In this document: piece by piece, positions 30,346 through 55,713 of the stretch | How positions within the stretch are numbered: the stretch's first letter is position 1 | Layout of the letters: each line of letters opens with the position of its first letter | Origin: Dakarella massiliensis | GTDB taxonomy: Bacteria > Pseudomonadota > Gammaproteobacteria > Burkholderiales > Burkholderiaceae_F | Assembly (NCBI RefSeq): GCF_001182045.1 | Contig: NZ_CVTY01000005.1 | Coordinates: forward strand, 62,001-126,000 | Length of the DNA stretch: 64,000 nt | Reading direction: 5' to 3' | Program-made: the position numbers and the translations under genes | The notes under the pieces: generated by a model | The model's database searches: none | Told to the model about the DNA's origin: nothing | What the model saw: the letters and a program-made list of their open reading frames with translations, nothing else

Positions 30346-30573
30346 ATGAAAAAAGGCACACGGAAAGACCAGGAAAAGCATCTGACCCTTCACCTCTGGC
30401 TCGTGATAGGGGTAAAGGTTCTCTGTATTTTTCTTCTTTGGCTGGTTTTCTTCTCACCCAGTCACAGACCTGATACGTCCGCGACTGCCGTGGGGAACGC
30501 CATCCTGGACCGGCCGATTTCGGATTCTCAGATCTCGGCTCCTGAGTCCAGCCTTCACAGAGACATACCATGA
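30346..30573 (+). CDS. cydP: CydP-type small cytochrome bd-associated protein
   Basis: The 75-residue protein has one membrane segment (HLWLVIGVKVLCIFLLWLVFFSPS, about residues 16-39), a basic N-terminus and a short polar C-terminus. Its stop overlaps the cydA start (ATGA), so the two are translationally coupled. Genes of this size, topology and position occur before cydA in Neisseria and Burkholderiales and are annotated as a putative small cytochrome oxidase subunit CydP. The name rests on context and the transmembrane pattern. Confidence 0.75.
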   Translation: MKKGTRKDQEKHLTLHLWLVIGVKVLCIFLLWLVFFSPSHRPDTSATAVGNAILDRPISDSQISAPESSLHRDIP

Positions 30574-32123
30574 TTACACCTGAACTTGTAGACCTGTCGC
30601 GATTGCAATTCGCTGTCACGGCTCTTTACCACTACCTCTTCGTCCCGCTCACTCTCGGACTTTCCATGATCCTCGTGGCCATGGAAGGCTGCTATGTGGT
30701 CACGGGGAAAGAAATCTATAAAGACATGACCCGATTCTGGGGCAAGCTCTTCGCGATTAACTTCGCCATGGGCATTGCTACCGGTATCACCATGGAATTC
30801 CAGTTCGGCACGAACTGGGCCTACTACTCGCACTACGTGGGCGATATTTTCGGCGCTCCGCTCGCGATTGAGGCTCTGGTGGCGTTCTTCATGGAATCCA
30901 CTTTCGCCGGCCTCTTCTTCTTCGGCTGGAAGCGGCTGAGCCGCCTGGGGCACTGGGTCTGCACGTTCCTCATGGCTCTCGGTACCAATATTTCCGCCAT
31001 GTGGATTCTGATCGCCAACGGCTGGATGCAGTTCCCGAAGGGCTCCGTCTTCAACGTTGAAACGATGCGTATGGAGATGGACAGCTTCTGGACCATCATC
31101 TCGAGCGAATGGGCTCAGGCCACGTTTACCCACACGGTGAGCGCCGGCTACATGACGGGCGCTGTCTTCGTGATGGCTATTTCCGCCTGGTACCTGCTCC
31201 GCAAGAGAGACGTTGAATTCGCCAAGAAGTCCATCATGATCGCCTGCGCGTTCGGTCTCGTGACCTCGCTCTTCACGATCCATCAGGGCGACGAATCCGC
31301 CTACCTCGCGACCCGCGACCAGCCTGAGAAGCTCGCCGCCATGGAAGCGATCTGGAACACGGAATCCACCCCGGCTCCGATTACGGTTTTCGCCATTCCG
31401 GACTCTGAGGCCCGCACGAATCACGCTGAAGTGAGGATCCCGTGGATTCTCGGCCTGATCGGTACGCGTTCTCTCTCCACTCCGGTTCCCGGCATCAATC
31501 AGCTGGTTGAACGCAACGTTGACCGCATCACCCGCGGCAAGGAAGCCGTCGTGGCTCTCGAAGCCCTCCGCGCCTCCCCGAAGGATCCTGCGCTCCTCGC
31601 GAAGTTCAAGGAAGTCCAGCCGTACCTCGGCTATGGCCTCCTGCTGCGCAAGTACACGAATGATGTTGCCAATGCCACGCCTGAAGTGATTCAGGAAGCT
31701 GCGGCTCACACCATTCCGTCTGTCGGTCTGATCTTCTGGAGCTTCCGCGGCATGGTGGTCAGCGGTCTGCTGATGATCGTGCTCTTCCTGGCGGGTCTCA
31801 TTTACTCGGTCAAGGGTTCTGTGGACAAGAAGTCCTGCTATCTGACGGCTGCTGTGATCGGTATGCCGCTGCCCTGGATCGCGAATGAACTCGGCTGGGT
31901 GGTGACCGAAGTCGGCCGCCAGCCCTGGTCCATCTACGGCATGCTTCCTGTCGATCTCTCGGTTTCGTCGCTTACCGCCGGATCCGTGTTCGGCTCCCTC
32001 GCCGGTTTCATCGTGCTGTACTCCTGCCTGATCGTGGTGGAAGTCTGGCTGATGAAGAAGTTCGCAGGTCTCGGGCCCTCTTCGCTCGGCACCGGTCGCT
32101 ACTTCTTTGAAAACCACAGATAA
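30570..32123 (+). CDS. cydA: Cytochrome bd ubiquinol oxidase subunit I
   Basis: CydA binds hemes b558, b595 and d and oxidises quinol in the inner membrane, giving high-affinity respiration at low oxygen. The 517-residue product has the N-terminal LSRLQFAVTALYHYLFVPLT with the heme-ligand histidine (H21), the TFTHTVSAGYMTGAVFVM helix with the second heme ligand, and the GRQPW motif. The periplasmic Q loop is of the long type, as in E. coli (522 residues). It is followed by cydB after 12 bp. Confidence 0.97.
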   Translation: MITPELVDLSRLQFAVTALYHYLFVPLTLGLSMILVAMEGCYVVTGKEIYKDMTRFWGKLFAINFAMGIATGITMEFQFGTNWAYYSHYVGDIFGAPLAIEALVAFFMESTFAGLFFFGWKRLSRLGHWVCTFLMALGTNISAMWILIANGWMQFPKGSVFNVETMRMEMDSFWTIISSEWAQATFTHTVSAGYMTGAVFVMAISAWYLLRKRDVEFAKKSIMIACAFGLVTSLFTIHQGDESAYLATRDQPEKLAAMEAIWNTESTPAPITVFAIPDSEARTNHAEVRIPWILGLIGTRSLSTPVPGINQLVERNVDRITRGKEAVVALEALRASPKDPALLAKFKEVQPYLGYGLLLRKYTNDVANATPEVIQEAAAHTIPSVGLIFWSFRGMVVSGLLMIVLFLAGLIYSVKGSVDKKSCYLTAAVIGMPLPWIANELGWVVTEVGRQPWSIYGMLPVDLSVSSLTAGSVFGSLAGFIVLYSCLIVVEVWLMKKFAGLGPSSLGTGRYFFENHR

Positions 32124-32135
32124 CCGGAGAATGCC

Positions 32136-33269
32136 ATGATTGACTATGAAATCCTGAAATTGATCTGGTGGCTCTTCATCGCCGTCCTGCTTACTGGCTT
32201 CGCCATTATGGATGGCCAGGACATGGGCGCGGGGACCCTCCTCCCCTTCCTCGGTAAGACCAACGAGGAACGCCGCATCATGATCAACGCCGTCGCCCCG
32301 CATTGGGACGGCAACGAAGTGTGGCTTCTTACCGGTGCCGGCGCCATGTTCGCGGCCTGGCCGATCGCCTACGCGACCGCGTTCTCGGGCTTCTACTGGG
32401 CGCTGCTCATCGTGCTGTTCATGCTGATCTTCCGCCCGGTGGCCTTTGACTACCGCAGCAAGGTTGACAGCACCAAGTGGCGCACCCTCTGGGATACGCT
32501 CCTCTTCCTCGGCTCTGCCGTTCCGCCGATCATCTGCGGCGTTGCTTTCGGCAACCTGCTGCAGGGCGTGCCCTTCCGGATCGACACCACGATGCGTGTC
32601 TACTATGAAGGCTCGTTCTTCGCGCTGCTCAACCCGTTCGCTCTGCTCTGCGGCGTTGTCAGCATCGCGATGGTGATCATGCACGGCGCCAACTACCTCG
32701 TCCTGAAGACTGAAGGTGACCTGCAGGCGCGTTCCGCCCGCGTGTCCACCCTGAGCTCGGCCGCGACGTTTGTCCTCTTCGCTCTCGCCGGCATCTGGCT
32801 TGCGATGGCGATTCCGGGCTACACGGCCACGGGTCTGGATCCGGCTGGCTTCCCGAACCCGCTCGCGAAGTCTGTGGCGATCGGCGGCAGCTGGTTCGAC
32901 AACCTCTCCGCTCACCCCTACTTCTACCTGCTCCCTGCCCTTGGCCTGCTCGGTTCGCTCCTGAGCCTCGTCTTCGGCAAGGCCGGCAAGTGGGGTTCTG
33001 CGATCGTTGCCTCTTCGGTGGCGCTCCTCGGTATCGTGCTGACGCCTTTTGTCACCATGTTCCCGTTCGTGATGCCGTCCTCGCTCGACCCAGTCTCCAG
33101 CCTTACGCTCTGGGACTGCACGAGCTCCCAGCTCACGCTTGAAATCATGTTCTTCGTCACGCTGATCTTCCTCCCGCTCGTTGTGATCTACACGAGCTGG
33201 GCCTATCACGTGATGAGAGGCAAGGTGACCCACGAGTACGTCTCGGAAAACTCTCACAGCCTCTACTGA
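32136..33269 (+). CDS. cydB: Cytochrome bd ubiquinol oxidase subunit II
   Basis: CydB is the structural partner of CydA. The 377-residue product starts with the family motif ILKLIWWLFIAVLLTGFAIMDGQDMGAGTLLPFL, with GNEVWLLTGAGAMFAAWP and the LYWALLIVL-type helices after it. Eight or more hydrophobic segments are visible. Spacing from cydA (12 bp) and to cydX (56 bp) shows one operon. Confidence 0.97.
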   Translation: MIDYEILKLIWWLFIAVLLTGFAIMDGQDMGAGTLLPFLGKTNEERRIMINAVAPHWDGNEVWLLTGAGAMFAAWPIAYATAFSGFYWALLIVLFMLIFRPVAFDYRSKVDSTKWRTLWDTLLFLGSAVPPIICGVAFGNLLQGVPFRIDTTMRVYYEGSFFALLNPFALLCGVVSIAMVIMHGANYLVLKTEGDLQARSARVSTLSSAATFVLFALAGIWLAMAIPGYTATGLDPAGFPNPLAKSVAIGGSWFDNLSAHPYFYLLPALGLLGSLLSLVFGKAGKWGSAIVASSVALLGIVLTPFVTMFPFVMPSSLDPVSSLTLWDCTSSQLTLEIMFFVTLIFLPLVVIYTSWAYHVMRGKVTHEYVSENSHSLY

Positions 33270-33325
33270 TGAATCCGGGAGGCGCTGGAACGCTTCAGCC
33301 GCCTCCCTACTGAAAAGGACATAAC

Positions 33326-33418
33326 ATGAGCTACTTTTACTGGATGGCAATTCTGGGGCTGGCAATCTGCCTCTCCATCGTCGTTTCCGTAGCGAAGGAC
33401 TTCATTAAGAAGGACTGA
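33326..33418 (+). CDS. cydX: CydX-like small subunit of cytochrome bd oxidase
   Basis: A 30-residue protein starting MSYFYWMAILGLAICLSI and ending in a charged tail (KDFIKKD). It resembles the CydX/YbgT pattern of an aromatic-rich start followed by WxxxLG and one membrane helix. GAAAAGGA lies nine bases upstream of the ATG. Position directly after cydB and before the operon terminator supports the call. In E. coli CydX stabilises the heme d site. Too short for most gene finders. Confidence 0.78.
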   Translation: MSYFYWMAILGLAICLSIVVSVAKDFIKKD

Positions 33419-48659: not shown

Positions 48660-50132
48660 TCAGCGGGCCGTCACAGCGCGATACTCCACGCGCTTGCTTT
48701 CGCGGGCCCAGAGGGCAACATAGCGGCGGTTGGACTTCACCGGGATCAGGGAACCGGCGATCATGCCGATACCGGCCACAATGAAGCCGCCGAGCACGCT
48801 CGGGAAGACTTCGCCAAGCGGGGTCACCGTGAGGATGATCCAGGTCGCGCCGCCAAGGAGAATCGACGAAATCGCGCCGAGGCGGGTCGCCTTCTTCCAG
48901 TAGAGGCCCATCACGAGCGGCCAGAAAGCACCGACCACCGGGAACTGATAGGCCATGGCCACCATGTCATAAATCGCAGTGCCTTCAACGGAGAGGGCAT
49001 ACACGAGGACGAGCAGCGTGAACACCAGAACTGTGGCGCGCATCGTGCGGATTTCGTTCTTCTCGCTGATATGCGTGAAGTTCTTCAGCACGTTTTCCAC
49101 AAAGGTGGTCGACGGAGCCAGGATCGTCGCGGAGGCGGTCGACATCACAGCCGAGAGCACAGCGCCGAAGAAGAGGACGCGGAGCCACATCGGCATGTAA
49201 TCGCGGATCATCGTCGGCAGAAGCTGCTGCGGGTCTTCGGCGAGCATGCGGCCGGACACATCCGGCATCACGAGGATCGAAGCCACCACAATGAACATCG
49301 GCACCATCGCGAAGAAGATGTAGAACACGCCGCCGATAATCGGGCCGGCAACAGCGATCTTCCCGGACTTCGCGGACATCACGCGTTGGAACACGTCCTG
49401 CTGCGGAATGGAACCGATCATCATCGTCATGGCAGCGGAGATCCAGAAGAGCCAGCCGTGAACCGACATTTCAGGAAGCGCGTGGAAAAGATGACGGTTA
49501 TTCGCGTAGGTGATCACCTTATCCGCGCCGCCCGCCATGTCACCCGCCACGAAAGCGATCACCACGAGACCGACGACAATCAGAATCATCTGGAAGAAGT
49601 CAGTCAGCGCAACGGACCACATGCCGCCGTACATCGTGTAAAGGAGCACGACCAGCGTACCGATCACCATGCCAAGCGTCACCGAAATCGCACCTTCCGT
49701 CACCAGGTTCAGCACGAGGCCGAGAGCGGAGACCTGAGCCGCCACCCATCCGAGGTAAGAGAGGATGATGAAAACCGAGCACGCGAGTTCTACGCCCTTC
49801 CCATAGCGATGACGGTAGAAGCTGCCGATCGTGAGAAGGTTCATCTTGTAGAGCTTGCCGGCAAAGAACGCGCCGACAAGAATAAGCGCCATACCGGAGC
49901 CGAACGGCTCCTCGATCACTCCGGCAATTCCGCCCTCAATAAAACGACCGGGAAGACCCAGCACCGTTTCAGAGCCGAACCACGTAGCGAACGTAGCAGT
50001 AATTACCATGGCTAGCGGCAGTGAACGACCAGCAAGAGCGTAGTCCTGCGTCGTTTTAACGCGAGTTGCGGCATAGAGACCGATTCCGATGGAAACGGCC
50101 ATATAGAGCATTACAAAACCAATCAGAGACAT
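48660..50132 (-). CDS. Sodium:solute symporter family protein
   Basis: This 490-residue protein has about 13 membrane helices and belongs to the SSS family (PutP/PanF type). Seen motifs are DYALAGRSLPLAMVITATFATWFGSETVLG near the N-terminus, the YTMYGGMWSVALTDFFQMILIVVG sodium-symporter signature, and QQDVFQRVMSAKS. The substrate cannot be deduced; proline, pantothenate and sialic acid carriers share this fold. It is monocistronic with its own promoter and terminator. Confidence 0.9.
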   Translation of the reverse strand: MSLIGFVMLYMAVSIGIGLYAATRVKTTQDYALAGRSLPLAMVITATFATWFGSETVLGLPGRFIEGGIAGVIEEPFGSGMALILVGAFFAGKLYKMNLLTIGSFYRHRYGKGVELACSVFIILSYLGWVAAQVSALGLVLNLVTEGAISVTLGMVIGTLVVLLYTMYGGMWSVALTDFFQMILIVVGLVVIAFVAGDMAGGADKVITYANNRHLFHALPEMSVHGWLFWISAAMTMMIGSIPQQDVFQRVMSAKSGKIAVAGPIIGGVFYIFFAMVPMFIVVASILVMPDVSGRMLAEDPQQLLPTMIRDYMPMWLRVLFFGAVLSAVMSTASATILAPSTTFVENVLKNFTHISEKNEIRTMRATVLVFTLLVLVYALSVEGTAIYDMVAMAYQFPVVGAFWPLVMGLYWKKATRLGAISSILLGGATWIILTVTPLGEVFPSVLGGFIVAGIGMIAGSLIPVKSNRRYVALWARESKRVEYRAVTAR

Positions 50133-50377: not shown

Positions 50378-50406
50378 AAAAAACCCGGCAGAAAAATCTG
50401 CCGGGC
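50378..50406 (-). terminator. Terminator of the ubiE/Tim44-like transcript
   Basis: A 9-bp stem CCCGGCAGA / TCTGCCGGG with a four-base loop followed by T6 on the minus strand, 26 bp after the Tim44-like stop. Confidence 0.92.
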
Positions 50407-50431
50407 TGCACGCTGAAAAACGTACTGAAAA

Positions 50432-51473
50432 TCAGGCTTCGACCTGCTGGATTCCAGCGAGGAGCCAGCCCTGATTTCCGTTCTCAACCGGGCGGGTGAG
50501 AGACCAGACTTCATTCACGTTTTCAATCTCATCCGTATTGCCGCCGGAAACCTTGAGTCGGCCGGTGAAGTGAACCGCGGCCACATACTCACTGCCTTCC
50601 GTGATCACGCCAAGCAGCTTGGCGTCGAGTGTCTCAACCGCGATCTTCAGCTCTTCGCCCTTACGGTCGCGAAGCTGGTGCGTGAGAACCGTGAAGACTT
50701 CATCCGTGCAGAACTCGCTCAGCTGCAGCACGTTGCCGGTGCTCCAGGCATCCTGAAGCCGGGTGAAGTTCTTCTTGCATTCAGCGACGAAAGCGGTTTC
50801 ATCAAACCCGGCCGGGATCGTGCTCTGAGCAGCCTTCTGAGAGAACTCATCCAGGACGGAACCCGGACGGGCATTGCTCTGGAAAGCGGCCGGAGCGGCA
50901 GCGGGCGCCGGTTCAGCGGCAGGCGCAGGGGCAGCCGCCGGCGGCTCCTCGCGCTGATAATTCATGCCGGAAAGCGTACCGGTCGAATCAGCGGAACGCT
51001 GAACCGGAGTCTGACGGCGGGCAAAAATGAAGCGCAGCACGGCAAACGCCACGACAGCGATCAGAATCAGCATCAGAATGCTGGCAAAACCAGGTCCGAG
51101 ACCCAGATAGTGAGTCAGAGCCGCGATGCCGAGCGCCGCGGCTGCACCCATCAGCATGTTACGGATCGGGCTGGCCGGCTTCGGCTGAGCCGCCGGGGTT
51201 GGAGCAGCGGCAGGAGCAGGTCTCTGCTGCTGAGGAGCAGCCTGAGGCTGCGGAGTGCTACGAGGAAGCTGAGCGGTACCCGCCGGGGCCATCTGCGCCG
51301 GGGCCGGACGGCCGAAGCTCACGAGGAAGCTGAGCGGTACCCGCCGGGGCCATCTGCGCCGGGGCCGGACGGCCGAAGCTCGCGCCGCCGCCGAAACGCC
51401 GCGCCGCATCTGCATTGGTGACCAGAGCCAGCGCCATGATTCCTGCTGCCACAAGGGGGAAAAACTTCTTCAT
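50432..51473 (-). pseudogene. Tim44-like (TIM44/Mba1 domain) protein gene, frameshifted by a 61-bp duplication
   Basis: The C-terminal part (SVLDEFSQKAAQSTIPAGFDETAFVAECKKNFTRL to the end) is a Tim44-like domain found in a bacterial family often encoded next to ubiE in this order. The natural start is ATG 51473, with a signal peptide (MKKFFPLVAAGIMALALVTN) and then RRFGGGASFGRPAPAQMAPA. An exact 61-bp tandem duplication (51260-51381) shifts the frame by one, and the first frame stops at 51258 after 71 residues. Removing one copy restores a 326-residue protein with the signal peptide, a Pro/Ala linker, a membrane segment (MGAAAALGIAALTHYLGLG and after) and the Tim44-like domain. Either the gene is broken here, or it is switched off reversibly, or this is an assembly error. 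Confidence 0.75.
51260..51381. repeat. Exact 61-bp tandem duplication inside the Tim44-like gene
   Basis: Copies at 51260-51320 and 51321-51381 are identical and end exactly where flanking bases differ. Sixty-one is not a multiple of three, so the copy number sets the reading frame. Confidence 0.9.
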
Positions 51474-51522: not shown

Positions 51523-52290
51523 TCAGGCTTTCCTGCCGATATGGAGAGCGCAGATGCCGAACGTCAGGTTTTCCCACGTGACCGTGGAGAATCCTGCCGT
51601 CTTCATGAGCTCTGCCACCTCAGCCTGGGCCGGAAAGCGCCGGATAGACTCGACCAGGTACTCATAGCTGTCGTGATCGCCAGCTATCTTAGATCCTAGC
51701 CAAGGCATAAATTTAAAAGAGTAAAAATCGTAAAAAGGTGCAAGCCAGCGGTCACAGTGCGAGAATTCAAGCACCATCGCGCGTCCGCCGGGTTTGGTCA
51801 CGCGGCACATTTCCCGTAACGCCCGGTCTTTGTGCGTCATATTGCGAAGACCGAAAGAGACGGTTACAACATCAAAAGTGTTGTCCGGGAAGGGCAGCTG
51901 CTCGCAGTCGCAGAGCGCCACGCGGCAATTGACTCCCTCCTGGCGGAAACGCTGCGCGCCGAGCCTGAGCATCTCGTGATTGATATCGGTCGCCCACACT
52001 TCCCCTTCGGGTCCTGCATTCTGAGCGAACTTCAGCGCCAGATCTCCGGTGCCGGAAGCGATATCAAGAACTTTCCATCCCTTCTGAACACCCGCCTTGG
52101 CAATCGTGTGATGCTTCCAGAGCCGATGCATGCCAAATGACAGCACGTCATTCATCAGATCGTACTTCGGCGCAACGGAATCAAAGACTTCGCGGACCTT
52201 CTCTTCCTTGTCGGTTTCTTTTACTTCAGCAAAGCCAAAGTCTGTCTGGTTCTTTCCCGTATTTTTTTGATCTGGCATTTTTTCAGTCAT
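51523..52290 (-). CDS. ubiE: Ubiquinone/menaquinone biosynthesis C-methyltransferase
   Basis: UbiE methylates the quinone ring with SAM in ubiquinone and/or menaquinone synthesis. The 255-residue product has KVREVFDSVAPKYDLMNDVLSFGMHRLWK, the SAM-binding VLDIASGTGDLALKFA, DINHEMLRLG, and the C-terminal GDHDSYEYLVESIRRFP and WENLTFGICALHIG motifs. It is immediately upstream of the Tim44-like gene, with which it is probably transcribed. The first 20 residues are a hydrophilic extension. Confidence 0.96.
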   Translation of the reverse strand: MTEKMPDQKNTGKNQTDFGFAEVKETDKEEKVREVFDSVAPKYDLMNDVLSFGMHRLWKHHTIAKAGVQKGWKVLDIASGTGDLALKFAQNAGPEGEVWATDINHEMLRLGAQRFRQEGVNCRVALCDCEQLPFPDNTFDVVTVSFGLRNMTHKDRALREMCRVTKPGGRAMVLEFSHCDRWLAPFYDFYSFKFMPWLGSKIAGDHDSYEYLVESIRRFPAQAEVAELMKTAGFSTVTWENLTFGICALHIGRKA

Positions 52291-52481: not shown

Positions 52482-52556
52482 TGGTGCCTCCGGAAGGAGT
52501 CGAACCTTCAATTCAGCCTTCGGAGGGCTGCGTGAAATCCGTTTCACTACGGAGGC
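52482..52556 (-). tRNA. tRNA-Arg (anticodon CCG)
   Basis: A 75-nt cloverleaf with acceptor GCCTCCG/CGGAGGC, anticodon arm CAGCC-CTCCGAA-GGCTG (anticodon CCG), discriminator A and encoded CCA. It follows priA by about 50 bp on the same strand. It reads CGG codons. Confidence 0.94.
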
Positions 52557-52606: not shown

Positions 52607-54637
52607 TTAATACCGCTGCGGATCGACCTCCAGCGTGAGGGGGCCTCCCGAACAGGGGCCGATCACCTGAACCCATGCCCGAAGGAACTGCAGCAGCTCC
52701 CGATGGGTCCTCCCTTCGACCAGAAGCTGGGCCCGGTTCCGATTGGCTACTTTAACGATCGTCATCGGTACCGGATCATAAATCGCGACTCCACCCCCAT
52801 CCGGAAGCTTCGACTGAATTTCAAGCCCGGCTTCCACTGCGTGATTGAGAAGCGCAAGCGCCTGAGACAGCTCTTTCTGCTCAGAGGTGAGAAGCGCCTG
52901 ATAGACAAAAGGCGGCGCTCCATCCCGCTTCCTTATCTTCAGCATCTGGTCCGCAAAGCCCTGATAGTCCTGGTGCGAGAGGAAGGTAAAGATCTCATCA
53001 TCCGGAAAAGCGGTTTCGACCAGCACCTCACTCTTCAGCCCCGCTCGCCCGGCGCGGCCTGAAACCTGCATCATCGTCGCGAAGGCTCTCTCCCGCGCCC
53101 TGACATCAGTCGAAATCAGCTGGCTGTCAATATTCAGGATGACGACGAGGCTCACCTTTTTGAAGTCGTGCCCCTTCGCGATCATCTGGGTCCCGATCAG
53201 GATATCGACCTTCCCCTCATGTACATCCTGAAAGGCTTTGTCGGTGCTTCGCTTGGTCTTGAAATTATCGCGGTCAATTCTCAGGCGTCGGGCGTCAGGC
53301 CAGAGTTTTCCGATTTCCTCTTCGATACGCTGGGTACCGATGCCAACCGGGAGGATATCGGCCGCACCGCACCCCGGGCAGCGTACCGGAACCCGCTGCG
53401 TATAGCCGCAATGGTGGCAAACCAGGCTTCGTGTGTCTTTATGAAAGACCATAAAGGCAGAGCAGTGGGGACACGCCGACTTCCAGCCGCAGGACGGGCA
53501 CATCAGCACCGGAGAGAATCCCCGGCGGTTGATATAAACAAGAACCTGCTCATGCTTCTGAAGCGTGGCTCCGATAGCTTCCTTCACCTCTTCGGAGAGG
53601 ACCTCTCCTTTCTTCAGCGTCCTCGTATCGACAAGACGCAGCTGCGGCGGCTCCGCTTTGGAAACCGCCTTATGGGACAGGGTAAGCAGCCGGTAGCTTC
53701 CGCTTCTCGCACGGGACCAGCTTTCGAGTGACGGCGTGGCAGACCCCAGAATGACCGGGATTCCGAGACTCTGGGCGCGCTTAACGGAGAGATCCCGGGC
53801 GGAATACCGAGCCCCGTCGCCGCCTTTGTAGGAAAGGTCGTGCTCCTCGTCCACCACGATGAGCGCAAGCTGCCTGAAACTCGCAAGCGCAGCCATCCGG
53901 GTTCCGACCAGAATCCTTGCCCGGCCTTCATGAACAGCCAGCCAGGATCTCGCCCGCTGCGCGTCCGGCAGGTCAGAGTTCAGCACAACAACGGATTCAT
54001 CCGCGAAATGGCTTCGGACGCGTTCTTCAAGCTGCGGTGTCAGATTGATTTCCGGGACCAGCAGAAGCACCTGATTCTGAGGCGACTGCTCTAGCACACG
54101 GCGCATGACCTGAAGATAAATCTCTGTCTTCCCGGAACCCGTCACCCCGAACAGGAGCCAGGTCTGGAAGCCCTTTGACGTGATGATCGCCTCAATCGCT
54201 TCCTTCTGTTCTGGATTCAGATCCAGAACCGGTGCAGGAGCAGGATTCTTTCCCGGTGCCGGCAGTGTCCGGATTTTTTCAAGAGACGACTGATAGCGGA
54301 CTCCGGGCTTCTTTCTGAAGAAGGTGGGCAGCGCCGGTATCGCGACTTCACCCCACGTTCTGCAGTAATAGTGCGAGGCAAAGCGTGTGAGCGACAGCCA
54401 TTCGGAGGAGAGCGGCGGAATGCCGAAGCGGACCGCGGACACTGACCGCAGTCTTTTATTCTCAATATCGGTCCAGGGCCTGAGCCCCGTCACAATCCCC
54501 GCCTTCTGCTGCCTCCCGACGGGAACCATGACGATGTCGCCGACCGCAAGAAGCTGTTCCGCCGGGACCTTATAGTCCAGCTCCGGCAGACCCGGCACGT
54601 CAACAATGACTCTTGCGAACTGCTCCGAAACGGTCAT
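52607..54637 (-). CDS. priA: Primosomal protein N' (replication restart helicase)
   Basis: PriA reloads the replisome at stalled forks. The 676-residue product has the N-terminal 3'-end-binding domain, Walker A FGVTGSGKTEIY, the DEEHD box (VVDEEHDLSYKGG), helicase motif GSATPSLESW, and eight cysteines of the zinc region (CPSCGWKSACPHC, CHHCGYTQRVPVRCPGC). It is slightly shorter than E. coli PriA (732) but all blocks are present. It is 5 bp after hemE, so the two are co-transcribed. Confidence 0.97.
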   Translation of the reverse strand: MTVSEQFARVIVDVPGLPELDYKVPAEQLLAVGDIVMVPVGRQQKAGIVTGLRPWTDIENKRLRSVSAVRFGIPPLSSEWLSLTRFASHYYCRTWGEVAIPALPTFFRKKPGVRYQSSLEKIRTLPAPGKNPAPAPVLDLNPEQKEAIEAIITSKGFQTWLLFGVTGSGKTEIYLQVMRRVLEQSPQNQVLLLVPEINLTPQLEERVRSHFADESVVVLNSDLPDAQRARSWLAVHEGRARILVGTRMAALASFRQLALIVVDEEHDLSYKGGDGARYSARDLSVKRAQSLGIPVILGSATPSLESWSRARSGSYRLLTLSHKAVSKAEPPQLRLVDTRTLKKGEVLSEEVKEAIGATLQKHEQVLVYINRRGFSPVLMCPSCGWKSACPHCSAFMVFHKDTRSLVCHHCGYTQRVPVRCPGCGAADILPVGIGTQRIEEEIGKLWPDARRLRIDRDNFKTKRSTDKAFQDVHEGKVDILIGTQMIAKGHDFKKVSLVVILNIDSQLISTDVRARERAFATMMQVSGRAGRAGLKSEVLVETAFPDDEIFTFLSHQDYQGFADQMLKIRKRDGAPPFVYQALLTSEQKELSQALALLNHAVEAGLEIQSKLPDGGGVAIYDPVPMTIVKVANRNRAQLLVEGRTHRELLQFLRAWVQVIGPCSGGPLTLEVDPQRY

Positions 54638-54642
54638 CGTTT

Positions 54643-55713
54643 TCAGATGTGATACTGACGGCTGTAGTGATGCACTTCGTCAACGAGTGCCTGTACGAGT
54701 TCCACCGGCGTATTGAGGTCAACACCGTGGCCCAGATTGAAGACGTGACCGCCCTGGCCGACAGGACCATAGGCATCGAGCACAAGACGAGCCTCTTCGC
54801 GCACCGTCTTCTCATCAGAGAGAAGCACGGCCGGATCGAGATTGCCCTGGAGCGCCACGCGGTCCTTCACCTCCTCGCGGGCACGGGCAAGGTTCATCGT
54901 CCAGTCGAGACCCACAGCGTCAGCGCCGCAGGAGGCGATATCCTTCAGCCACACTGAGCCGCCCTTCGTAAAGACCACGACCGGCACGCGGCGGCCCTCG
55001 TGTTCGCGCGTCAGGTTGGCGATCACATTGCGGATGCTCGCGAGTGAATACTGCTGATAAAGCCCGTCTGCGAGACAGCCGCCCCAGGTATCAAAAATCT
55101 GAATCGCCTGCGCGCCGGCTTCAATCTGAGCATTCAGATACTCAGTCACCGCCTTCTCATTCACGGAAATAACCTTCTGGAACAGATCCGGACGGCGATA
55201 CATCATCGACTTCACGGTGAAGAAATTGCGGCTGCCGCGGCCTTCAATCATGTAGCAGGCCAGCGTGAAGGGACTTCCCGAGAAACCGAAAAGCGGCACC
55301 CGTCCCTGGAGAGTGCTGCGGATGCTCGACACCGCGTCTGTTACGTACTTCAGGTCGGTTCCGACATCCGGAACATGAAGCTTCGCAACCGCTTCCTCGC
55401 TCTGGACCGGGGATTCGAAAACCGGGCCCTCACCCGGCACAAATTTCAGTCCAAGTCCCATTGCGTCCGGCACCGTCAGGATGTCGGAGAAGAGAATCGC
55501 TGCATCAAGATCAAAGCGATCCACGGGCTGCAGCGTCACTTCCGTCGCGTACTCGGGAGAATGGGCCAGATTCAGGAAGCTCCCCGCCTTCTCGCGCGTT
55601 GCCCGGTACTCCGGCAGGAACCGCCCGGCCTGACGCATCAGCCAGATCGGCGTATAGGGAACAGGTTCCTTCTGCAACGCCTTGAGAAGATTGTCATTAA
55701 TAAGTTCTGTCAT
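54643..55713 (-). CDS. hemE: Uroporphyrinogen decarboxylase
   Basis: HemE converts uroporphyrinogen III to coproporphyrinogen III in heme synthesis. The 356-residue product has the two UroD signatures, [19 protein letters not shown] near the N-terminus and [16 protein letters not shown], with the [16 protein letters not shown] and [14 protein letters not shown] stretches. It is followed by priA and preceded by the ATP synthase terminator. Heme supplied by this pathway would also serve the cytochrome bd oxidase in this window. Confidence 0.97.

Follow-up and report, generated by a model that had tools for sequence, protein, structure and literature searches.

An exact 61-bp tandem duplication shifts the frame of a Tim44-like gene in the assembly of a gut bacterium

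In the genome assembly of a gut bacterium close to Mesosutterella multiformis, a Tim44-like gene is put out of frame by two identical copies of a 61-bp sequence. Three readings had been proposed for this locus: an on/off switch for an envelope protein, a new loss-of-function mutation or an assembly artefact. We examined which of the three agrees best with the repeat itself, with the copy number in related genomes and with the state of the disrupted gene. All coordinates refer to the window, that is, the whole analysed stretch of 64,000 nucleotides, which corresponds to positions 62001-126000 of a 503-kb contig (assembly size 2.48 Mb, 7 contigs).

The duplication and the reading frames

The locus contains the following features:
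48660-50132, minus strand: sodium:solute symporter gene, intact, downstream neighbour
50432-51262, minus strand: remainder of the Tim44-like gene, open in the other frame, with hydrophobic segments and the Tim44-like domain (PF04280)
51258-51473, minus strand: shortened 71-aa ORF with signal peptide (MKKFFPLVAAGIMALALVTNADAA), RRFGGGASFGRP motif, out-of-frame tail and stop
51260-51320, minus strand: copy A of the 61-bp repeat, the 3' copy with respect to the gene
51321-51381, minus strand: copy B of the 61-bp repeat, the 5' copy with respect to the gene
51523-52290, minus strand: ubiE/COQ5 methyltransferase gene, intact, upstream neighbour in the direction of transcription

The predicted exact, back-to-back duplication was confirmed by TRF, which reported a repeat at 51260-51381 with period 61, 2.0 copies, 100% matches and no indels. 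The G+C content of the unit is 75%. As 61 equals 3 × 20 + 1 and is thus no multiple of three, the frame is lost: the ORF starting at the minus-strand ATG at 51473, which is preceded by a good ribosome-binding sequence (AGGAAAGGAT) on reading the sequence, stops at 51258 after 71 residues, as the original prediction had described. It had also claimed that a single copy would give a clean protein of 326 residues, and such an ORF does exist in M. multiformis (L002:2851-3831). A change in copy number therefore moves the gene in or out of frame, with a 71-aa ORF for two copies and a 326-aa ORF in the one-copy relative. The downstream frame also offers an internal start, a TTG at 51454 followed by 340 codons, whose product would lack the signal peptide; reading the sequence at this TTG gave no evident ribosome-binding site.

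The intact protein consists of a signal peptide, a low-complexity Pro/Ala/Gln linker, hydrophobic segments and a C-terminal Tim44-like domain. In the disrupted gene the downstream part still belongs to PF04280 (residues 148-273, 73.2 bits against a gathering cut-off of 29.6, E 3e-20). Bacterial Tim44-like proteins (PF04280; TimA/Tim44 adaptor, NF033779/NF033778) have this same C-terminal domain with hydrophobic segments ahead of it. In contrast to the TimA/Tim44 adaptor, the Burkholderiales type found here has a signal peptide and an RRxGGG motif, and it scores below the NCBIfam cut-offs (24.9 against 200 bits for NF033778, 46.6 against 80 bits for NF033779). The intact M. multiformis gene scores likewise on these profiles. 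Given these scores the protein is not an assigned TimA; judged by its sequence, it belongs to a conserved type of Tim44-like protein in Burkholderiales and has a predicted membrane or periplasmic location.

Breakpoints of the duplication

The match between the copies runs for exactly 61 bp with zero shared bases at either breakpoint, so we found no exact microhomology there, nor did the breakpoints show flanking direct repeats able to regenerate the 61-bp duplication. Two short words were considered as a cause and rejected. The GCT triplet, which occurs before the repeat and near its end, has a spacing of 60 bp and would give an in-frame duplication of 60 bp rather than 61; the two GAAGCT words within the unit are 49 bp apart and leave the length of 61 unexplained. 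Instability driven by hairpins was rejected as well, with the single and the doubled unit folding no better than shuffled sequences (z 0.3 to 0.9). A search of 400 kb from the same contig and of another 400 kb from M. multiformis detected no further exact tandem with a period of 15-600, which rules out chance as the source of an exact 61-mer tandem.

Copy number in related genomes

The closest relative compared was M. multiformis 4NBBH2, with an identity of ~94.9% along 354 kb of contig C5. Its genome contains exactly one copy (L002/L006), a 61-mer identical to both copies in the window, and its gene is intact with 326 aa. This single copy can be trusted because the M. multiformis assembly is built on PacBio data with 340-fold coverage and a mean read length of 13 kb (PMC6588042). 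For the three other members of the genus the region is present once and is 76-79% identical. None of the 29 loci in relatives contained a tandem repeat at this place, although 2 of the 29 are cut off at the 5' end; the 27 loci with a complete 5' end all keep a signal-peptide-like start and the Arg/Lys-x-Gly-Gly motif. One copy in M. multiformis together with the lack of a repeat in the other relatives indicates that one copy is ancestral and two are derived. By this comparison of sequences the derived state is so far found in this assembly only.

Across the family, no internal stop occurred among the matches to the gene in 67 genomes, and recurrent breakage of the gene was not found in this set. 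All 7 genomes searched from one genus of the family gave no match at all, so the Tim44-like gene can be lost and is dispensable at least there. We also considered a recent import of the region from M. multiformis and rejected it. The identical stretches flanking the repeat (292 bp on one side and 120 bp on the other) are not unusual: there are 181 identical runs of at least 150 bp between the two genomes in 354 kb, the longest with 837 bp.

Constraint on the disrupted gene

For the part of the gene 3' of the repeat we counted 27 synonymous and 3 nonsynonymous differences from M. multiformis (dS 0.141, dN 0.0049, ratio 0.034). The dN/dS ratios of the intact neighbours are similar, with 0.022 for the symporter and 0.029 for priA. 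The same comparison revealed no further stop or indel in the disrupted gene, so that neither relaxed constraint nor further lesions, the signs of a decayed pseudogene, were observed. Had constraint been absent for more than ~18% of the gene's own branch, three or fewer replacements would be unlikely (P < 0.05). This age estimate is rough, since dS ranges between 0.02 and 0.39 across the window, which is a sign of recombination. The lack of decay implies that the break is either recent or not present in the cells. That the gene has long been dead in this lineage is accordingly extremely unlikely: the frame is broken and the genus without a match shows that the gene can be lost, but a dN/dS of 0.034, the absence of any further stop or indel and the identity of both copies all argue against an established pseudogene.

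Recent mutation, assembly error or switch

With one copy ancestral and the gene undecayed, a new loss-of-function mutation is the best supported of the three proposals, and we consider it probable that the repeat is a recent loss-of-function tandem duplication in one lineage, revertible in principle. In this event 61 bp just after the signal-peptide region would have been duplicated head to tail, presumably by template switching or a replication error. Translation would then leave the frame and stop after 71 residues, and the exported Tim44-like protein would be lost or, at best, made from the internal start without its signal peptide. Conservation of the gene in nearly all relatives counts against this explanation, since it makes a loss unusual outside one genus.

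The serious rival is an assembly error, in which only one copy exists in the cell and two fragments that overlap by 61 bp were joined by the assembler or scaffolder with the overlap left unmerged. We regard this as possible, if rather doubtful. An unmerged overlap would look like the observed match of exactly 61 bp with zero microhomology, 61 is an odd, k-mer-like length, and the G+C content of the unit, the downstream gene without any decay and the single copy in the long-read assembly of M. multiformis would all agree with an artefact. However, the zero microhomology discriminates little because it would be expected by chance in ~9 of 16 random duplications. The repeat also lies well inside the 503-kb contig, and ~0.94 Mb sampled from the genome contained no other exact tandem duplication of at least 15 bp inside contigs. 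Assembly joins of this kind, with period 61 or otherwise, are thus not systematic. The 61-bp duplication is the only clear frame-breaking difference from M. multiformis within the window; nearly all other indels are intergenic, located at gene edges or mutually compensating. The position of these indels and the lack of a second in-contig tandem show that the assembly is otherwise clean.

The third proposal, a switch for an envelope protein, was not borne out. It would require high-frequency changes between one copy (ON) and two copies (OFF), with selection preserving this ability, which we consider very unlikely. A reversible OFF state would agree with perfect copies in a frame that is otherwise under constraint. 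Yet nothing about the repeat fits a switch except its out-of-frame length and the identity between its copies, and a recent origin would explain both just as well. A phase-variable repeat should be present or recur at the same place in relatives, and it is in none of the 29 loci. The breakpoints offer no flanking direct repeats that could recreate the duplication repeatedly, the unit forms no unusual hairpins, and the product is widely conserved and no evident surface antigen. Moreover, the strain is known in one state from one assembly and the nearest species has one copy. Tandem copies of such a size can be lost by slippage, and a mutation of this type may therefore revert when one copy is removed precisely. 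The ability to revert does not by itself make a maintained switch, for which we found no positive support. Overall, the locus is best described as a recent tandem duplication of an ordinary kind that shifts the frame, or as an assembly error that takes the same form, a switch being very unlikely.

Comparison with known systems

Reversible duplications within ORFs are the known precedent in favour of a switch. The passages of PMC4243769 and PMC2995930 that cite Waite et al. (2001, 2003) describe spontaneous sequence duplications within the ORFs of the pneumococcal capsule genes cap3A, cap8E and tts. As far as these passages go, the likeness is that a cell-envelope gene is turned off by an in-ORF duplication and could in principle be restored if one copy were lost precisely, whereas the pneumococcal case is tied to high-frequency phase variation and ours consists of one assembly in one state and a different gene. 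By analogy, commensal Sutterellaceae might toggle the Tim44-like protein through gain and precise loss of the 61-bp copy as a contingency switch, a conjecture to which we give hardly any credence. Phase variation by tandem-repeat copy number is also described for Mycobacterium tuberculosis, where structural errors in an older reference genome were reported as well (PMC12817950). The likeness is that the copy number of a tandem repeat alters the expression of a gene, as it would here; the M. tuberculosis repeats, however, are promoter repeats that vary both inside populations and from one population to another (PMC12817950), in contrast to a single occurrence that is coding and out of frame.

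Taken as a recent frameshift, the duplication is a detail at the level of the strain: a Tim44-like envelope protein that is conserved but poorly characterised may be missing from one bacterium, which would then be a natural knockout for comparison with M. multiformis. Wider interest would depend on the presence of both copy numbers side by side in cultures. When a draft genome contains a short exact tandem duplication, the reads should be checked before a pseudogene or a switch is called.

Further observations

A tRNA-Arg (CCG) gene lies on the minus strand at 52482-52556, between ubiE and priA. For priA and the next gene (52607-55713) dS reaches 0.39 and 0.28, compared to 0.02-0.17 in nearby genes, which suggests that a recombination boundary lies close to the Tim44/ubiE locus. 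In M. multiformis an insertion of ~1.36 kb with an IS256-family transposase gene (L002:3894-5162, between the symporter and the Tim44-like genes) follows directly downstream of the Tim44-like gene; this insertion is lacking at the matching place in the window (~50405-50416). A 936-aa minus-strand ORF at 30555-33365 showed a dN/dS of 1.29 and matched neither Pfam nor NCBIfam; it lies antisense to a pair of ORFs of 517 and 377 aa on the plus strand, which resemble cytochrome bd oxidase subunits by sequence, and is almost certainly not a gene. The sole exception among the ~0.94 Mb searched for tandem duplications is the small contig C2 (L076, 3958 bp), whose sequence starts with an array of some five exact tandem repeats of 24 bp (TCCCGCCGCTACTGCGAAGAAGGC), possibly Lys/Ala/Pro-rich coding sequence; the break in the assembly thus falls at this array.
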